From the IMG/VR virus record IMGVR_UViG_3300025853_000811, positions 1 to 21,128 of that record: 21,128 nucleotides of DNA; one strand, written 5' to 3'. The notes below the pieces were generated by a model. It was not told the DNA's origin. It made no database searches and saw only the letters and a program-made list of their open reading frames with translations. Below are positions 1 through 18,803 of this stretch, one piece after another. The translations under genes and the position numbers were made by a program. Numbering within the stretch: the stretch's first letter is position 1; the number at the start of each line of letters is the position of its first letter. The stretch comes from a virus.

Positions 1-329
1 TCCCGCTGTTGTGTTGCTTCATCTGTTTCTCGCCAGCCAGCTTGTGTTTTTAGATAGAAGATCTGGGCTGTGACGTTACCGTCCAGGCCAGTTTTGATCA
101 GGGATTGACCCATTCTTGCAATGGCCCTGGCTCGGCCTTTTTGATAGGCATCACTTACCTCAGGCTGCCTGCCTTCTACCTCGCGCAAGGTAGTCTCTGA
201 AATGCCAAAATAATCAGCCATTTGGCGCTTTGATGTGACAGCAGCCAGCGCTTCTACCTGGGCGATTTCTTGCTCGTTGAATACTCTCATTGGCCTGCCG
301 CCGCCGTCTCCCTGATTACCGCGTTTCAC
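1..329 (-). CDS. Small terminase-like HTH protein, C-terminus beyond left edge
   Basis: The frame is open from a GTG at 329 to the left edge (about 109 codons, no stop). I chose this GTG because AAGGAA lies 7 nt upstream and the gene then overlaps the end of the ParB-methyltransferase by 14 bp. The alternative is ATG at 290. The N-terminus has a basic Gly-rich GGGRP segment, then a helix-turn-helix-like stretch (KRQMADYFGISETTLREVE) and the segment AQIFYLKTQAGWRE, which I know from phage small-terminase and related DNA-binding proteins. Small terminases recognise the packaging site and load DNA onto the large subunit. Position at the end of the early operon, next to a ParB-methyltransferase, fits a packaging start, with the large terminase expected just outside the window. 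The family call is from motif resemblance only; a generic phage DNA-binding protein remains possible. Confidence 0.6.
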   Translation of the reverse strand, partial: MKRGNQGDGGGRPMRVFNEQEIAQVEALAAVTSKRQMADYFGISETTLREVEGRQPEVSDAYQKGRARAIARMGQSLIKTGLDGNVTAQIFYLKTQAGWRETDEATQQR

Positions 330-1626
330 GTGGAACTTCCTTCAGTTGACCAATCCCGGCATCTGCAAGATTCCCTTTTCGTCCATTAACAATCATGTCG
401 TTATATGAATCACCGCTGGATTCGAGAATAGCTTGCTTGCCAGAGAAGTCCTGCCATCGATTAATTATCACATCGCAGTATTTTGGGTCGAGTTCCATTA
501 ATCTTGCCATTCGGCCATTTTTCTCTGCAGCAATCATTGTCGTTCCAGACCCACCAAAACTATCCAAAACAATATCGCCGCCTTTAGTATTATTCAAAAG
601 GCAGTACTCAAACAAATCAACGGGCTTCATCGTTGGATGCTTTTCGCTTTTTGATGGCCTATTAAATTCCAGGATAGTGGTTTGCTTTCTATCTGACGCC
701 CAGAGATGTCCAGCGCCATCTTTCCAGCCATATAAGCATGGCTCATGCTGCCAATGGTAATCCTGCCTTCCCATTACCATTGATTGTTTTTTCCATATCA
801 AACATTGTCGAACCTGCCAAGCAGTATCTTTTGCTGCGCCTCTAAAATTGTATCCTTCTGAATCGGCATGCCAAATATAGAATACGGCACCTGGCTTCAT
901 GACCGAATCTGCCGCAACATAGCAATCGCGCAGGAATTGCCGAAATTGGCCGTCGCCCATTGAGTCATTTTTTATTGTTAGCGCATCCTTTGTTTTGCCC
1001 TCGTAAGCGACATTATATGGTGGGTCAGTGAGCCACATATCCACAGATTGACCGCACAATTCTTCTATCTGATCGATGCTAGTGCTGTCACCGCACATCA
1101 GACGATGATTCCCCATAACCCAGACATCTCCGGGCCTGGTTATAGGATCGTCTGGCACATCGGGAACCTCATCCTCATCGGTCAAACCATCGACTGTTTC
1201 CGGTTCCAGGAGCTTGGCGAGCTCGTCTGAATCGAATCCGAGCAGTTCAAGATCGAAATCTGATTCCTGGAGTGCGGTGAGTTCCGTCGATAATATCTCC
1301 GTGTCCCATCCAGCATTTAGAGCCAGGCGATTATCCGCAATGACATAAGCCTTTTTCTGGGCCTCTGTCAAATGCTTTGCCTGTACCACTGGAAGATGGG
1401 TTTTGCCCAGTTTACGGGCAGCCAATACGCGGCCATGCCCAGCAATTATGCCGTTGTCGCCGTCCACGATGATTGGATTGAGAAAGCCGAACTCCGATAT
1501 GCTGGCAGCAATCTGCGCCACTTGAGCATCGGAATGAGTGCGAGAATTGAGAGCGTACGGTATTAGATCGTCTATTGAGACAATCGAGTGCTCTATTGCG
1601 TCTTGTGCCATCTGTACCCCGTACAT
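316..1626 (-). CDS. ParB-like domain fused to DNA methyltransferase (N6-adenine/N4-cytosine class)
   Basis: A 436-aa two-domain protein. Residues about 12-100 form a ParB/Sulfiredoxin-like domain with the nucleotide-binding signature IIAGHGRVLAARKLG (60-74). After an acidic linker (about 140-162) comes a methyltransferase with DPPY at 201-204 (motif IV, catalytic), HPTMKP at 330-335 and FGGSGTT at 357-363 (motif I, AdoMet binding). The order IV before I is the beta-class arrangement of amino-methyltransferases. Such ParB-methylase fusions are common in phages next to terminase genes, as here. It probably methylates adenine N6 or cytosine N4 in phage DNA, shielding it from restriction; the role of the ParB part is unknown. 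ATG at 1611 (MAQDAIEH) has GGGG nearby and is an alternative start. Family call is firm; the exact base modified is not readable. Confidence 0.93.
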   Translation of the reverse strand: MYGVQMAQDAIEHSIVSIDDLIPYALNSRTHSDAQVAQIAASISEFGFLNPIIVDGDNGIIAGHGRVLAARKLGKTHLPVVQAKHLTEAQKKAYVIADNRLALNAGWDTEILSTELTALQESDFDLELLGFDSDELAKLLEPETVDGLTDEDEVPDVPDDPITRPGDVWVMGNHRLMCGDSTSIDQIEELCGQSVDMWLTDPPYNVAYEGKTKDALTIKNDSMGDGQFRQFLRDCYVAADSVMKPGAVFYIWHADSEGYNFRGAAKDTAWQVRQCLIWKKQSMVMGRQDYHWQHEPCLYGWKDGAGHLWASDRKQTTILEFNRPSKSEKHPTMKPVDLFEYCLLNNTKGGDIVLDSFGGSGTTMIAAEKNGRMARLMELDPKYCDVIINRWQDFSGKQAILESSGDSYNDMIVNGRKGNLADAGIGQLKEVPRETR

Positions 1627-1941: not shown

Positions 1942-2072
1942 ATCTCTACCTCGAACCCATGTTTCTCAGTGAGTTTAGCGCAGTATAAACGATTCGGATT
2001 AATTTTGTCTCGTATTTGGTGAATACACTGATTGCAATTTTCCAGGATGTTCAGTTCGCTTTCTTGTCTCAT
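1887..2072 (-). CDS. Small cysteine-containing protein, unknown function
   Basis: A 61-aa ORF starting at ATG 2072, which overlaps the methyltransferase stop by 4 bp (ATGA), with AAGG 7 nt upstream. Translational coupling to the methyltransferase is therefore likely. It contains CNQC at 13-16 and further cysteines at about 31, 45 and 56, a pattern that could bind a metal. I do not recognise the family. It overlaps the start of the DUF1289 gene by 55 bp. The well-formed start supports a real gene despite its size. Confidence 0.6.
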   Translation of the reverse strand: MRQESELNILENCNQCIHQIRDKINPNRLYCAKLTEKHGFEVEICVNKYKHFPTNCPLPKV

Positions 2073-3121
2073 ACAAATGCCTTGATTATTTCTGCCGCGA
2101 CTTGCGGGACAATGGCGTTACCCGCTCCGCGCAGTATGCCCACTCGATTGGATATCCCATTAGCCAAAGGGAAAAGCGCGGGTTCAGTTGGGATGGCTCG
2201 GAATTTTCCGTCTTTGCATTGCACTGCCTGACAGCGCCCCCAAGTGTTGTGCCATTGGTCTTGCTGTACTGGCCCGCCATCTGAGCGTTGTCCTGAGTTG
2301 TTACTGTCGGCCAGAGAGTCGTTGCCTGCGTATTCAGCCCGCCGCTCCGCTTCCCGTCCAATTCTCTCGTTCCATTGGTGTCCGATGTCGTTGGAGTCAG
2401 CCATATTGAGCCAACCATCATTGAAAGTTCGATTGATTTTTTCTTCTCTATCCGCCTCTGAATTGCTGGACTGTCGTAATGCCCCCGGTCTCTGTTGTCG
2501 CTTGATAATGGTGTCGGCCATTTCGACACCTCTTCCATCAGATGAACACAGTGCGCCATCTTGTCGGATCTCCCGCTGTTCACTACGCTCGGAGCCGCCC
2601 CATCCTTGCCGTCCCGAGCCGCTGGCGTGGGCCACGATCCAGAGCCTATCCCTTTTGTGGAGAGCGCCGACACCTGAAGCTGGCAGTACCGCCGCTGCGC
2701 AGGCGTAGCCTTCAGCTTCCAAATCTTCTTGAAGGGAATCAAGCCAGCCGTGCCTGATAGCGGAGCTAACTTGCTCTCCAAATATGATTGAAGGTCTGCA
2801 CTCTCTGACAAGATTGAACCAGACGGGCCAGAGGTGTCGCTCGTCATCTGTTCCTTTCTGCTTTCCTGCGACCGAGAATGGCTGACAGGGCGGTGATCCT
2901 GTCCACATTGGTCTGTCATCTCTCCATCCAGCAAGTCTAGCTGCATATGCCCAACCTCCTATTCCGGCGAAAAAATGGCATTGTTTATATCCCTTCAGAT
3001 CAGATGGCTCAACCTCGGTAATGCTTCTTGAATCTACATCTCCCGCTGGGATCAAGCCATCCTTGATAAGCTCCTTGAGCCACTCAACAGCGAATGGCTC
3101 ATATTCGTTGTAATAGTTCAC
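2069..3121 (-). CDS. Phage DNA cytosine-5 methyltransferase (main frame, alpha-like chain)
   Basis: A C5 methyltransferase of about 350 aa that transfers a methyl group from AdoMet to cytosine C5. Visible motifs: FAGIGG (I, about 51-56), SPPCQPFS (IV, catalytic Cys about 79), GEQV (VI, about 115-118, Gln in place of the usual Asn), KRDR (VIII-like, about 156-159) and GAGNAIVPQVA (X, near 332-342). The region between VIII and X repeats an AH/AD-containing unit four times (VAHASGSG, MADTI, MADSNDIG, LADSNNSG). A classical motif IX (R-x-L-T-x-R-E...Q-x-F-P) is missing from this frame. I chose GTG 3121 because it overlaps the previous stop by 4 bp and has GAGGA 6 nt upstream; TTG 3127 is also in frame. 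A second ORF is nested in another frame. The target sequence cannot be read. Confidence 0.93.
   Translation of the reverse strand: MNYYNEYEPFAVEWLKELIKDGLIPAGDVDSRSITEVEPSDLKGYKQCHFFAGIGGWAYAARLAGWRDDRPMWTGSPPCQPFSVAGKQKGTDDERHLWPVWFNLVRECRPSIIFGEQVSSAIRHGWLDSLQEDLEAEGYACAAAVLPASGVGALHKRDRLWIVAHASGSGRQGWGGSERSEQREIRQDGALCSSDGRGVEMADTIIKRQQRPGALRQSSNSEADREEKINRTFNDGWLNMADSNDIGHQWNERIGREAERRAEYAGNDSLADSNNSGQRSDGGPVQQDQWHNTWGRCQAVQCKDGKFRAIPTEPALFPLANGISNRVGILRGAGNAIVPQVAAEIIKAFV
2086..2946 (-). CDS. Out-of-frame ORF nested in the cytosine methyltransferase gene (putative beta-like chain)
   Basis: A 286-codon ORF lying wholly inside the methyltransferase gene, shifted +1. ATG 2946 has a perfect AGGAGG 8 nt upstream, formed by the codons of motif I. 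The product looks protein-like: four W-[PL]-T-[PV]-x-x-x-D units (residues about 105, 143, 182, 212) and a C-terminal LNPRFSLWLMGYPIEW (254-269). The latter resembles C5-methyltransferase motif IX (L-T-P-R-E...L-Q-G-F-P), which the main frame lacks. In M.EcoHK31I a beta chain encoded in an alternative frame inside the alpha gene supplies motif IX and is needed for activity; by analogy this may be the partner chain that completes target recognition. Seen: SD, length, repeats. Inferred: translation and role. The competing view is a chance ORF kept open by the repeats. Confidence 0.65.
   Translation of the reverse strand: MQLDLLDGEMTDQCGQDHRPVSHSRSQESRKEQMTSDTSGPSGSILSESADLQSYLESKLAPLSGTAGLIPFKKIWKLKATPAQRRYCQLQVSALSTKGIGSGSWPTPAARDGKDGAAPSVVNSGRSDKMAHCVHLMEEVSKWPTPLSSDNRDRGHYDSPAIQRRIEKKKSIELSMMVGSIWLTPTTSDTNGTRELDGKRSGGLNTQATTLWPTVTTQDNAQMAGQYSKTNGTTLGGAVRQCNAKTENSEPSQLNPRFSLWLMGYPIEWAYCAERVTPLSRKSRQK
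2955..2960 (-). promoter_or_regulatory. Internal Shine-Dalgarno (AGGAGG) within methyltransferase motif I
   Basis: The codons for Ile-Gly-Gly of FAGIGG read ATA GGA GGT on the minus strand, giving AGGAGG, with ATG following after 8 nt. This is a near-ideal ribosome binding site for the nested ORF starting at 2946. Confidence 0.7.
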
Positions 3122-3297
3122 TCGCAATCCTCTGAGCCATATGGAATGCCGACATAGTCATGCCCAGTAGCCTCCCACTGGGCACGTTGTTCGCAGATAT
3201 CATTCTGGTAATCGCTCGAACTCCAGCCGTCAAGAACCATCAGAGTGAATGCGATGGTCAGAGCACCGCATCCCAGCATGTACATAAAATCTTTCAT
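3118..3297 (-). CDS. Small single-span membrane protein, unknown function
   Basis: A 59-aa ORF starting at ATG 3297, sharing one base with the previous stop (TGATG) and preceded by AGGAGG at 7 nt. Residues about 5-22 (MYMLGCGALTIAFTLMVL) form a hydrophobic segment that could be a membrane anchor. The rest is polar, with cysteines near residues 35 and 58. The stop overlaps the GTG start of the methyltransferase (GTGA). The strong ribosome site and coupling on both sides argue for a real gene. No family recognised. Confidence 0.65.
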   Translation of the reverse strand: MKDFMYMLGCGALTIAFTLMVLDGWSSSDYQNDICEQRAQWEATGHDYVGIPYGSEDCE

Positions 3298-15417: not shown

Positions 15418-15729
15418 CTATCCAGTAGCACTCTTTCGCTTCTTGCCCAGCGCTTTACCAACCGATGCCCGGAAAGCATTGCTCTTGGTAATAATCCTGC
15501 TTACCAATTCAGCCTTGTCCTCGCCTGATTCGCTGATAATGGCGTCAATCATTGGAGTTGGAGAAGTGTTGTCAGCTATATATGACTTGGCTTCTTCTTC
15601 CTGAACAGGGAAGGTGTCTATTTCTTCCTGTGTGTAGTCCTTGACTATCTGTCTAGCTTCTATTTGGAAAGCCTTGGTAGCGTTTCGTGCATCAACAATA
15701 GCCTTTAGTTCTTCCTGAGTGTGCTTCAT
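15418..15729 (-). CDS. Small fibre-associated protein (tail assembly chaperone-like)
   Basis: A 103-aa protein directly behind the tail fibre, sharing one base with its stop (TAATG), with AGGG about 8 nt upstream. It contains DYTQEEIDTFPVQEEEAKSY, TPMIDAIISESGEDKAELVS and RIITKSNAFRASVGKALG, the layout of short proteins of the tail-fibre-assembly/DUF4376 type. It may be a chaperone for folding or trimerising the fibre, as usual for genes in this position; the family link is approximate. Confidence 0.55.
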   Translation of the reverse strand: MKHTQEELKAIVDARNATKAFQIEARQIVKDYTQEEIDTFPVQEEEAKSYIADNTSPTPMIDAIISESGEDKAELVSRIITKSNAFRASVGKALGKKRKSATG

Positions 15730-18700
15730 TACACTACCCTCACTTTCAAGTTGTTGGCAGCCAGAGCAGTTATCCTGACTTTATTCGTTGCGGGGAAATC
15801 AAAGTCGTAATCAGTACCAATTATTGCGCCTTCATTGAGTGTGTTGGCATCGTAGTTAATAGATACCCCATCACTTGAAGGAACAGTTGAGCCACTAGAC
15901 AGATTAAAGATAATCGCCAAATCCAGATCATTACCTAGAGTAAAGTGGTTGGCGTCTGTGACGGCCTCTAGTTGAGTCTTGTTCATGCGGTTTTCGGCTT
16001 CGGCCATCGCTTCTTCCAAAGCACTCAGTTCTGTATTAGTGCTTGCCGCTGTCCAGGTCTCCGAACCGTAGGTTGAGTTAGAGTTGTATTCCCAAGTACC
16101 ACCGTTGTTCCGGACAATATCTCTCTCGCCGTCTGTGTTATCTATAACAGTCCACGTTGTTCTGTCGTCTGTAGAGACTGCGTAATAGACATTCCCATCA
16201 CCTGCGCTTTCATCAGCAGTCATGGAGTTAATGTCAGTCCAGTAGGTAGAGTCTATTGAGGCTGTAGTGTGGGCTGCGTTGTAGCCGGATGGGATTGAGA
16301 TTGTGCCAACGTTATATTCGTTGACGTCTTGTCCACCATATCCAACAATAAACATCTTTGTTCCATCAGTGTTAAAGGCTATTCCTCGTGGGGTTGCTTC
16401 TTGTGCAGATACTGAAAAGTTTTGAGAATAAGTGGCCGTGGATACGTCAAAACCTGTACCCAATGTGTATTCGTTAACATCTTGACCAGACCCACCAACA
16501 ACAAACATTTTTGTTCCGTCATTGTTGAAAGCTAGCCCGTACGGGAATGTGTCTTGTGCGGATACAGAAAAGTTCTGTGAATAAGATGCTGTGGATACAT
16601 CAAATCCAGTGCCTAGTGTGTATTCGTTGACGTCATCTCCATCGGTTCCAAGAATAAACATTTTTGTGCCATCAGTATTAAATGCTATTCCCTGTGGCTG
16701 TGTTTCTTGTGCGGATACAGAAAAGTTCTGTGAGTAGGTGGCCGTAGAAACGTCAAATCCTGTAGTTAATGTGTACTCGTTGACGTCTTGTCCACTAGTG
16801 CCAACAATAAACATCTTAGTGCCATCGCTATTAAATGCCATGTCTCTCGGGTCTGTTTCTTGTGCAGATACAGAGAATGCGTCAACAAAACTTGCCGTTG
16901 AAACGTCAAAACCTGTGCCTAATGTGTATTCGTTGACGTCATCTCCAGCAAAACCAACAACAAACATTTTCGTGCCGTCGGTATTAAAAGCTATTCCGCT
17001 TGGCTGTGTTTCTTGTGAAGCTACAGAAAAAGAATCAACAAAACTAGCCGTAGAAACATCAAACTTAGTATCAGGATCAAGAATTCCACTCAACTCCAAA
17101 TCACCATCAGTGGTGTTATACACTACGGCGTACATCTCCCAGTCACCTGAAGCTACTTGAGCGTAAGAAGAAGGGGCTGTGGTTTCTACAAAGGCACCAC
17201 CTGTAGATGTGAGGATAAGCTCACCAGAGTTAGCGTAGATAGTTTTGCCTACGTCTGCGGAAGTGAAGGAGCCTGTGCCGATCTTTACAGAGGAATAGCT
17301 TAGATCGTATTCGTTAACATCATCCCCAGTGCTTCCAACAATAAACATTTTATTACCGTCGGTGTTAAAGGCTATTCCGAATGGAGTTGCTTCTTGTGCA
17401 GATACGGAAAAGTTTTGGGAGTATGTTGCTGTTGAAACATCAAATCCTGTTCCTAATGTATATTCGTTTACGTCATCTCCATCAGTTCCAACAATAAACA
17501 TTTTTGTTCCATCGGTATTAAAGGCTATTCCTCTTGGGTTTGTGTCTTGTGCAGATACAGAAAATGCGTCAACAAAAGTAGCCGTTGAAACATCAAAACC
17601 TGTGCCTAGTGTGTATTCGTTGACATCTTGTCCAGTACTGCCAACAATAAACATTTTAGTTCCATCATTGTTAAAGGCTATTCCTACTGGGCCTGTGTCT
17701 TGTGCAGATACAGAAAAGTTTTGTGAGTAACTAGCAGTAGAAACATCAAATCCTGTTCCTAGTGTATACTCGTTGACGTCATCTCCACTATATCCAACAA
17801 TAAACATTTTCGTTCCATCTGTATTAAAGGCTATTCCCTGTGGAGATGTTTCTTGCGCTGATACAGAAAAGTTTTGAGAGTATGTAGCCGTAGATACGTC
17901 AAAGCCTGTGCTAAGAGTATATTCATTTACGTCTTGCCCTGCGAAACCAACAATAAACATCTTGGTGCCGTCTGTATTGAACGCTATATCTTGTGGGGTT
18001 GTATCTTGTGCAGAAACAGAAAAAGCATCAACAAAATTCGCCGTACTCACATCAAACCCAACAAAGTCCAACGTAGTCGCAGGGGCACTATTGACCCTGG
18101 TGTAATTTTCAGCAGTTGAGTTGACATCCCAAGAATTATTAGTAACACCTGTTTGGGGGACTTCTTTAGTCACAGAAACTACAGGAGTACCAGCAGTCAC
18201 AGCAGAGGATAGAGTGAGCGTTGATTGCTCACCTGAAATATAAGTCTTGGTCTGTGTTGCTAGTGTTGGGTCTATTGCAGCCCACTCCACGCCGTTCTCA
18301 GCAGTGTTTACCGCTAACGCTTTGCCAGCATTTCCGGAGAGCGTAGGAACACCGACCGCAGCTTGAGCCGCAGCAGCGTAGATCTGAGCATTATTGGCAG
18401 AAGTTGCTGCGTTGGTTGCGGATGTCCCCGCCGACGTAGCGCTAGCCGCTGAGTCGGTAGAGTAGCTCTTTGCGCTATACTCGCCATCAGCAACGATCTG
18501 CCCTGCAGTCTTGCTAGCCCAATCCTTTGCCGAGCCTGTAGGTGCTGCACCGCTTGCGTTAGCGAATGCCGACCAGTCGGAGCCGGTTACTGCCGCATCG
18601 TTCTTAGTCGCCCAATTTTGAGCCAGAACCACGTTAGTATCAACGCCAGCGATGTCAGTATTCATCTCACCGATACTGGTGTTAAGTTCTGTTACCATCG

Positions 18701-18803
18701 TGACCAGTGCAGCCAGGAAAGCATCTGCTCTGGAAATGAATGTAGCAGGAGCGTCAGTTCTTGCTGGCGCTGTTGGTAGTGCAGTAATTGTGCTAATAGT
18801 CAT
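15729..18803 (-). CDS. Tail fibre with ten 51-residue propeller-like repeats
   Basis: A 1024-aa fibre, probably the host-binding protein. The N-terminus (TALPTAPARTDAPATFISRA) resembles siphophage fibre attachment regions. Residues about 105-150 are Ala/Ser/Thr-rich and may form a coiled coil. Residues 250-505 and 581-835 each hold five repeats of the form FDVSTA...FSVSAQ...P.GIAFN.DGTKMFIVG..G.DVNEYTL, with no indels; a 76-residue domain separates the blocks. The repeat matches the sequence style of beta-propeller blades, so each block or the whole may form a propeller. The C-terminus (about 835-1024) is a separate beta-rich segment that recurs in environmental phage proteins. ATG 18803 shares a base with the previous stop. 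Which part binds the host is unknown. Confidence 0.85.
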   Translation of the reverse strand: MTISTITALPTAPARTDAPATFISRADAFLAALVTMVTELNTSIGEMNTDIAGVDTNVVLAQNWATKNDAAVTGSDWSAFANASGAAPTGSAKDWASKTAGQIVADGEYSAKSYSTDSAASATSAGTSATNAATSANNAQIYAAAAQAAVGVPTLSGNAGKALAVNTAENGVEWAAIDPTLATQTKTYISGEQSTLTLSSAVTAGTPVVSVTKEVPQTGVTNNSWDVNSTAENYTRVNSAPATTLDFVGFDVSTANFVDAFSVSAQDTTPQDIAFNTDGTKMFIVGFAGQDVNEYTLSTGFDVSTATYSQNFSVSAQETSPQGIAFNTDGTKMFIVGYSGDDVNEYTLGTGFDVSTASYSQNFSVSAQDTGPVGIAFNNDGTKMFIVGSTGQDVNEYTLGTGFDVSTATFVDAFSVSAQDTNPRGIAFNTDGTKMFIVGTDGDDVNEYTLGTGFDVSTATYSQNFSVSAQEATPFGIAFNTDGNKMFIVGSTGDDVNEYDLSYSSVKIGTGSFTSADVGKTIYANSGELILTSTGGAFVETTAPSSYAQVASGDWEMYAVVYNTTDGDLELSGILDPDTKFDVSTASFVDSFSVASQETQPSGIAFNTDGTKMFVVGFAGDDVNEYTLGTGFDVSTASFVDAFSVSAQETDPRDMAFNSDGTKMFIVGTSGQDVNEYTLTTGFDVSTATYSQNFSVSAQETQPQGIAFNTDGTKMFILGTDGDDVNEYTLGTGFDVSTASYSQNFSVSAQDTFPYGLAFNNDGTKMFVVGGSGQDVNEYTLGTGFDVSTATYSQNFSVSAQEATPRGIAFNTDGTKMFIVGYGGQDVNEYNVGTISIPSGYNAAHTTASIDSTYWTDINSMTADESAGDGNVYYAVSTDDRTTWTVIDNTDGERDIVRNNGGTWEYNSNSTYGSETWTAASTNTELSALEEAMAEAENRMNKTQLEAVTDANHFTLGNDLDLAIIFNLSSGSTVPSSDGVSINYDANTLNEGAIIGTDYDFDFPATNKVRITALAANNLKVRVV
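16299..17063 (-). repeat. Five tandem 153-bp coding repeats (fibre block 2)
   Basis: Units start at 17063, 16910, 16757, 16604 and 16451, exactly 153 bp apart, in frame. The last unit diverges after VNEY. Differences cluster at two loop positions per unit. Confidence 0.9.
17292..18056 (-). repeat. Five tandem 153-bp coding repeats (fibre block 1)
   Basis: Units start at 18056, 17903, 17750, 17597 and 17444, exactly 153 bp apart. The fifth unit changes after VNEY into the 76-residue inserted domain (17064-17291). Confidence 0.9.

Follow-up and report, generated by a model that had tools for sequence, protein, structure and literature searches.

The DNA analyzed here, referred to as the window, is a virus record of 21,128 bases (IMG/VR record IMGVR_UViG_3300025853_000811) that carries a methyltransferase locus on its minus strand. 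The gene that we call alpha (positions 2069 to 3121, minus strand) matches PF00145 (E = 1e-20) and phrog_363 (E = 2e-75) and encodes the predicted large, catalytic chain of a C5-cytosine methyltransferase, 350 amino acids long when read from a GTG at 3121. Its ORF is open as far as 3127 (2069 to 3127, minus strand), and a likely Shine-Dalgarno (SD) sequence, AGAGGA, lies 6 nt upstream of the GTG (3128 to 3133); alpha probably starts at this GTG rather than at the ORF edge.

Alpha contains motifs I, IV, VI, VIII, and X of the C5-cytosine DNA methyltransferases in the conserved order. Motif I, FFAGIGGW (SAM binding; 2951 to 2974), has invariant or near-invariant columns, and motif IV, GSPPCQ (2882 to 2899), includes the catalytic Cys81 (ORF numbering), with P80, C81, and Q82 invariant. 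In motif VI, FGEQV (2768 to 2782), E118, Q119, and V120 are invariant; the EQV that replaces the usual ENV is shared by the whole 85-sequence alpha alignment. R159 and R161 are invariant in motif VIII, HKRDRLWIVA (2630 to 2659), as are, fully or nearly so, R328, R333, G336, and N337 in motif X, RVGILRGAGNAIVP (2105 to 2146). A sequence-only reading of this DNA had assigned these motifs to the main frame and found it to lack motif IX, which agrees with our analysis: motif IX is present at the locus, in the nested frame described below rather than in alpha. In the AlphaFold2 model of alpha, the catalytic part mostly has pLDDT values above 90, residues 188 to 286 are disordered, and the motif X helix is ordered. 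The top Foldseek matches to this model are structures of M.HhaI, which resembles alpha in the fold of the catalytic domain but is a single chain with its TRD and motif IX in one frame.

The second gene, beta (2086 to 2946, minus strand), is nested in the +1 frame of alpha and encodes 286 amino acids that match phrog_1008 (E = 4e-27), a family annotated as "DNA methyltransferase." No match to beta was obtained in Pfam and NCBIfam searches or in a PDB sequence search. As the sequence-only reading had described, a perfect AGGAGG (2955 to 2960) is located 8 nt before the ATG at 2946; in alpha, the same bases encode the Gly-Gly of motif I (FAGIGGW). Beta consists of a helix/hairpin domain (residues 51 to 100) followed by a recognition region of WPTP repeats and then motif IX. 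AlphaFold2 modeled only the helix and hairpin (51 to 100) and two motif IX helices (250 to 280) with confidence, and the rest of the model had a low pLDDT of 57. When this model was searched against viral structures with Foldseek, two matches had E values below 0.001, one of them a phage methyltransferase; their TM-scores were ~0.2, and we discarded them.

An open frame of this length might simply be a by-product of a conserved alpha and GC-rich repeats, being open and seemingly conserved yet untranslated. Alpha is indeed well conserved. The openness, however, was destroyed when synonymous codons of alpha were permuted: a +1 open run of at least 290 codons occurred in 0.16% of 5,000 permutations, and the longest open run in the beta frame averaged 120 codons, relative to 290 in the real sequence. 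Open runs in the two alternative frames did not exceed 124 codons in six further long genes of the window. Across 85 dereplicated loci, the beta frame contained 0.27 stops per gene versus 3.7 expected under alpha codon permutation, and the third frame contained 11.4 versus 10.6 expected. The single-chain enzymes of Javan311 and pST, which are ordinary C5-methyltransferases, contain many stops in each of the two other frames, again contrary to what the by-product explanation implies.

The nested frame is also open in nearly all homologs, the first of the checks that the sequence-only reading had proposed. A tblastn search with beta returned 132 phage records, 97 of which cover at least 80% of beta, and a scan of IMG/VR with beta returned 64 loci. 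So that loci would not be chosen by beta, we also scanned with an alignment of the N-terminal part of alpha; among the best 80 of at least 589 relatives, beta was matched in the +1 frame at all 79 of the 79 additional loci. This sample is strong, although its independence is incomplete, given that the query alignment (A1) was built largely from beta-selected loci. At 123 of 128 distinct alpha loci, at least 80% of beta was nested in the +1 frame; four of the remaining five had a +1 beta with less overlap and one had a displaced beta, so that none was without a beta match. A contig scan with the beta alignment A2 identified five loci in bacterial MAGs, four with the +1 overlap and one (L169) with an interrupted beta. 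As judged by these alignments, two different predicted proteins are encoded in overlapping frames, and the arrangement recurs in well over 100 related phage sequences. In L169 (1536 to 3435) and L067 (1233 to 3324), the beta frame lies in pieces around an extra ~730 bases, and alpha is intact in L169.

Because the beta frame is shifted by +1, each alpha third position doubles as position 2 of a beta codon. We therefore scored third-site identity among alpha four-fold codons for the same residue. This identity was 0.31 in the alpha-only part, remained close to that value over codons 70 to 98, and, beginning near codon 103, rose to 0.9 to 1.0 at many sites; over motifs IX and X, the mean was 0.66, and synonymous sites over alpha residues 331 to 345 (motif X) relaxed again. 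The ratio of pairwise differences at position 3 to those at position 2 fell from 3.7 outside the overlap to 2.0 where the beta domain is encoded and 1.3 at motif IX, and it returned to 3.9 beyond this motif. Between the window and its relative L002, there were 28 third-position changes in 55 alpha-only codons versus 3 in 71 overlap codons; the 22 motif IX codons contained no third-position changes and 3 changes at the alpha first position, which is the wobble position of beta. The extra synonymous constraint to be expected of a dual-coding overlap was thus strong at alpha synonymous sites, and these substitution patterns show that dual-frame coding is under selection.

Translation signals were likewise enriched. 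In-frame ATGs preceded by an SD match of five or more were found at 44 of the 85 loci, relative to 11.6 expected (maximum, 20 in 100 permutations), and none was found in the third frame. Relative to the conserved Arg97 of alpha, the most common site is 59 codons upstream, with constant AGGAG spacing, and the beta start of the window is 36 codons upstream. Since the first ~35 residues of beta are weakly constrained, the ATG at beta residue 34 (2845 to 2847), where the constraint sets in, is a possible second start. The family-wide SD-ATG enrichment, which lies further upstream, favors an upstream start such as 2946 over the ATG at 2847. Most of these first ~35 residues do look like a by-product of alpha. 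Nevertheless, the effect of codon permutation, the frozen synonymous sites of alpha, and the enrichment of SD-preceded ATGs led us to reject the by-product explanation, which we regard as almost certainly wrong.

We next consider the recognition region, whose four repeat units are readable in both frames, as the sequence-only reading had noted: as AH- or AD-containing units in alpha and as W-[PL]-T-x units in beta. The units (all minus strand) are WPTP at beta residue 105 over alpha VAHA (2623 to 2634), WPTP at residue 143 over MADT (2509 to 2520), WLTP at residue 182 over MADS (2392 to 2403), and WPTV at residue 212 over LADS (2302 to 2313). Four-fold sites of beta, which are first positions of alpha, are constrained under the alpha catalytic motifs and motif X, and their identity is around 0.3 at the WPTP units. 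At the Asp located at +7 of 206 WxTP units, a residue that played no part in choosing the units, beta codon positions 1 and 2 are conserved (0.87 and 0.89 bits) and position 3 is free (0.24 bits). Since the wobble pattern at these units follows the beta frame, a further argument against the by-product explanation, selection in the recognition region acts on beta codons. The AD and AH residues of alpha in this region look like by-products. The constraint pattern puts the TRD, beyond motif IX alone, in the beta frame, which goes further than the sequence-only reading.

The end of beta, which that reading had likened to motif IX, contains LNPRFSLWLMGYPIEW (2140 to 2187, minus strand). VSAEFYEWLMGLPRGW of Mycobacterium phage Graduation and LSPVFVEWMMGLPRGW of Gordonia phage JKSyngboy align in MAFFT on LTPRECWRLQGFPDYAF, the segment between motifs VIII and X of the single-chain enzyme of Streptococcus phage Javan311, and hhalign places beta on the same Javan311 stretch as a moderate match (probability, 68 to 69%; E value, about 4e-5), with the WLMG end of beta aligned with motif IX. 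This part of beta thus aligns with single-chain relatives, forms helices in the beta model, and lies where the third sites of alpha are frozen. The specific DNA contacts of M.HhaI and M.HaeIII are made by the small domain, which comprises the variable region together with motif IX (PMC3404938); by this comparison, each frame at the locus would correspond to one structural domain.

The motif IX assignment also bears on whether beta could be an independent protein with another job, such as a regulator or a homing nuclease. Out-of-frame HNH genes are known inside phage methylases, and in the ShiLan methylase the HNH is encoded in the other frame of an inserted segment (PMC11855218). In contrast, no HNH or other domain was found in beta in our searches, its end aligns as motif IX and is in frame with motif X in relatives, and alpha is without a motif IX of its own. 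Moreover, beta overlies catalytic motifs IV to VIII and is therefore not an insertion. We rejected a ShiLan-type homing HNH given the lack of an HNH match in beta and the conserved alpha motifs beneath it, and we consider an independent role for beta very improbable. An ORF of HNH-like appearance (CEKCGDPHWRLHVHHISENRSDNHPENLKTLCPSCH) was observed at a related locus, L151 (phiKX1; 1283 to 2940), where it occupies another frame inside alpha (2421 to 2940), between the recognition region and motif X, and is possibly a homing insertion.

The distribution of motifs IX and X between frames differs among relatives. In three distant loci (L156, L157, and L163), the alpha ORF stops either past motif VIII or partway through the recognition region. 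An overlapping +1 ORF there encodes the repeats and continues without a change of frame through motif IX to motif X. The beta-frame chains of these loci match both phrog_1008 (beta) and phrog_363 (motif X part); Pfam did not recognize motifs IX to X in the L156 and L157 chains. In Graduation, the alpha frame itself encodes both motifs IX and X, and what remains in the +1 frame is a short ORF with the hairpin part and a single repeat unit. From these predicted layouts, the frames of motifs IX and X vary between relatives, and the early part of the recognition region stays +1 to motifs I to VIII. The overlap is also present in Lactobacillus phage Lc-Nu and Paenibacillus phage Jacopo.

This variation would be compatible with programmed ribosomal frameshifting from alpha into a fused chain in place of internal initiation, since a shift could bridge the varying frames and a strong SD-start is missing from some loci. 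However, the beta constraint reaches alpha codons 103 to 167 (motifs VI to VIII), which lie outside any fusion made after motif VIII, a single shift in the topology of the window would omit motif X, and SD-preceded starts are enriched as described above. We therefore judge frameshifting to be improbable, though somewhat less so than an independent role for beta, and favor internal initiation.

Several individual loci depart from the common layout. Stops break alpha in the recognition region of L103 (2949 to 4308) and L108 (2949 to 4128), and beta runs through; motif X would thus be a separate peptide there. In L094 and L113, the frames are exchanged by apparent indels, so that the alpha N-terminal part runs into motif IX or the beta N-terminal part into motif X; these indels may be sequencing errors. 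L134 (2970 to 5685) carries two dual-frame C5-methyltransferases of different subfamilies adjacent on one contig; a stand-alone, nonoverlapping beta was considered for the second of these and was dropped, as its beta ORF overlaps alpha.

A design in which the small chain of a C5-methyltransferase is encoded in another frame within the large-chain gene has been known since 1995 from M.EcoHK31I, an enzyme with the target YGGCCR. This naturally split enzyme is functional as two polypeptides (PMC3439449); its small chain has only motif IX, and motifs I to VIII and X are assigned to the large chain along with a predicted TRD (PMC3404938). The window resembles it in having a large chain with motifs I to VIII and X but without IX, and a small chain with motif IX in another frame inside the large-chain gene. 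By this analogy, the locus is the same kind of arrangement as M.EcoHK31I, and the open frame, the synonymous constraint, and the motif IX alignment support the shared dual-coding design put forward in the sequence-only reading. In contrast to the M.EcoHK31I TRD, which is predicted in the large chain, the recognition repeats of the window vary as beta codons; since the alpha frame over these repeats is unconstrained and disordered, a TRD in the large chain, which is perhaps not a defining trait, was not found at the window locus. We do not claim that M.EcoHK31I itself differs in the frame of its TRD, because its published TRD is a prediction and was compared by description only.

The beta gene of M.AquI, another two-chain C5-methyltransferase, follows its alpha without a long overlap. 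M.AquI is split after motif VIII, and its second chain contains part of the recognition region and motifs IX and X (PMC3404938). The window shares with it the location of motif IX on the second chain but has motif X in the alpha frame, whereas L156, L157, and L163 resemble M.AquI in carrying motif X on the second chain but differ in that this chain overlaps alpha. Among phages, K1ind2 and K1ind3 ("C-specific methylase" and "Mte8-like"), PhiXhv-5, and Jacopo have a homologous +1 nested pair, annotated as two ORFs. Our literature search, conducted mostly without subscription papers, found no paper that treats the phage overlap as a family or explains the K1ind2-type pair. The breadth of the arrangement in phages, the placement of the TRD in beta rather than alpha, and the several frame topologies are possibly new.

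Taken together, the locus is very probably a dual-coding gene for a two-chain C5-cytosine methyltransferase in which a catalytic alpha and a beta carrying the recognition region and motif IX assemble into one enzyme. Both chains would be made from one message, with beta likely initiated internally at its own ribosome-binding site inside alpha. Alpha would supply the large catalytic domain (SAM binding, the catalytic Cys, motifs I to VIII, and the motif X helix) and transfer the methyl group, and its frame across the recognition region is probably just a stop-free spacer. Beta would constitute the small domain, in which a helix-hairpin lead precedes the WPTP-type recognition repeats and motif IX, and would read the DNA sequence. 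By analogy with known two-chain enzymes, we infer that the chains join, and that both are needed, to methylate phage DNA at a specific site. On a broader scale, we lean toward the view that the locus belongs to a large, old family of phage C5-methyltransferases with catalytic and recognition domains in two overlapping frames, with motifs IX and X moved between frames by lineage and with annotation that gives most members only one protein, which on its own would be inactive.

The choice of frame in phage annotation looks arbitrary, and records of these relatives usually give just one of the two ORFs. Alpha alone is annotated in Gungnir39, EBPR podovirus 2, Marilyn, and BcepC6B; beta alone is annotated in ST20 ("hypothetical protein"), Tunturi_1 ("DNA methyltransferase"), and phiKX1; and both ORFs are annotated in K1ind2, K1ind3, PhiXhv-5, and Jacopo. 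The public annotation of L173, L175, L176, and L181 gives alpha, beta, or both without pattern. Cloning from an annotated ORF alone may truncate or lose the partner chain. To our knowledge, long same-strand overlaps of two functional protein domains are rare, and selection on the present one has been tested across many phage lineages. It offers a natural system for studying how two domains coevolve under the requirement that no change in recognition sequence may close a second frame, and the route by which an enzyme domain moves into another reading frame.

Since no cognate nuclease was recognized among the window genes examined, the enzyme likely serves to protect phage DNA from host restriction. 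Directly downstream of the locus (316 to 1626, minus strand), the window encodes a ParB-like domain fused to an adenine/N4-type DNA methyltransferase (phrog_498; E = 7e-172). A 1,024-amino-acid protein encoded farther away (15729 to 18803, minus strand) contains many repeats of the type FDVSTAxFxxxFSVSAQxxxPxxIAFNTDGTKMFIVG, which perhaps form a propeller in a tail or fiber protein.
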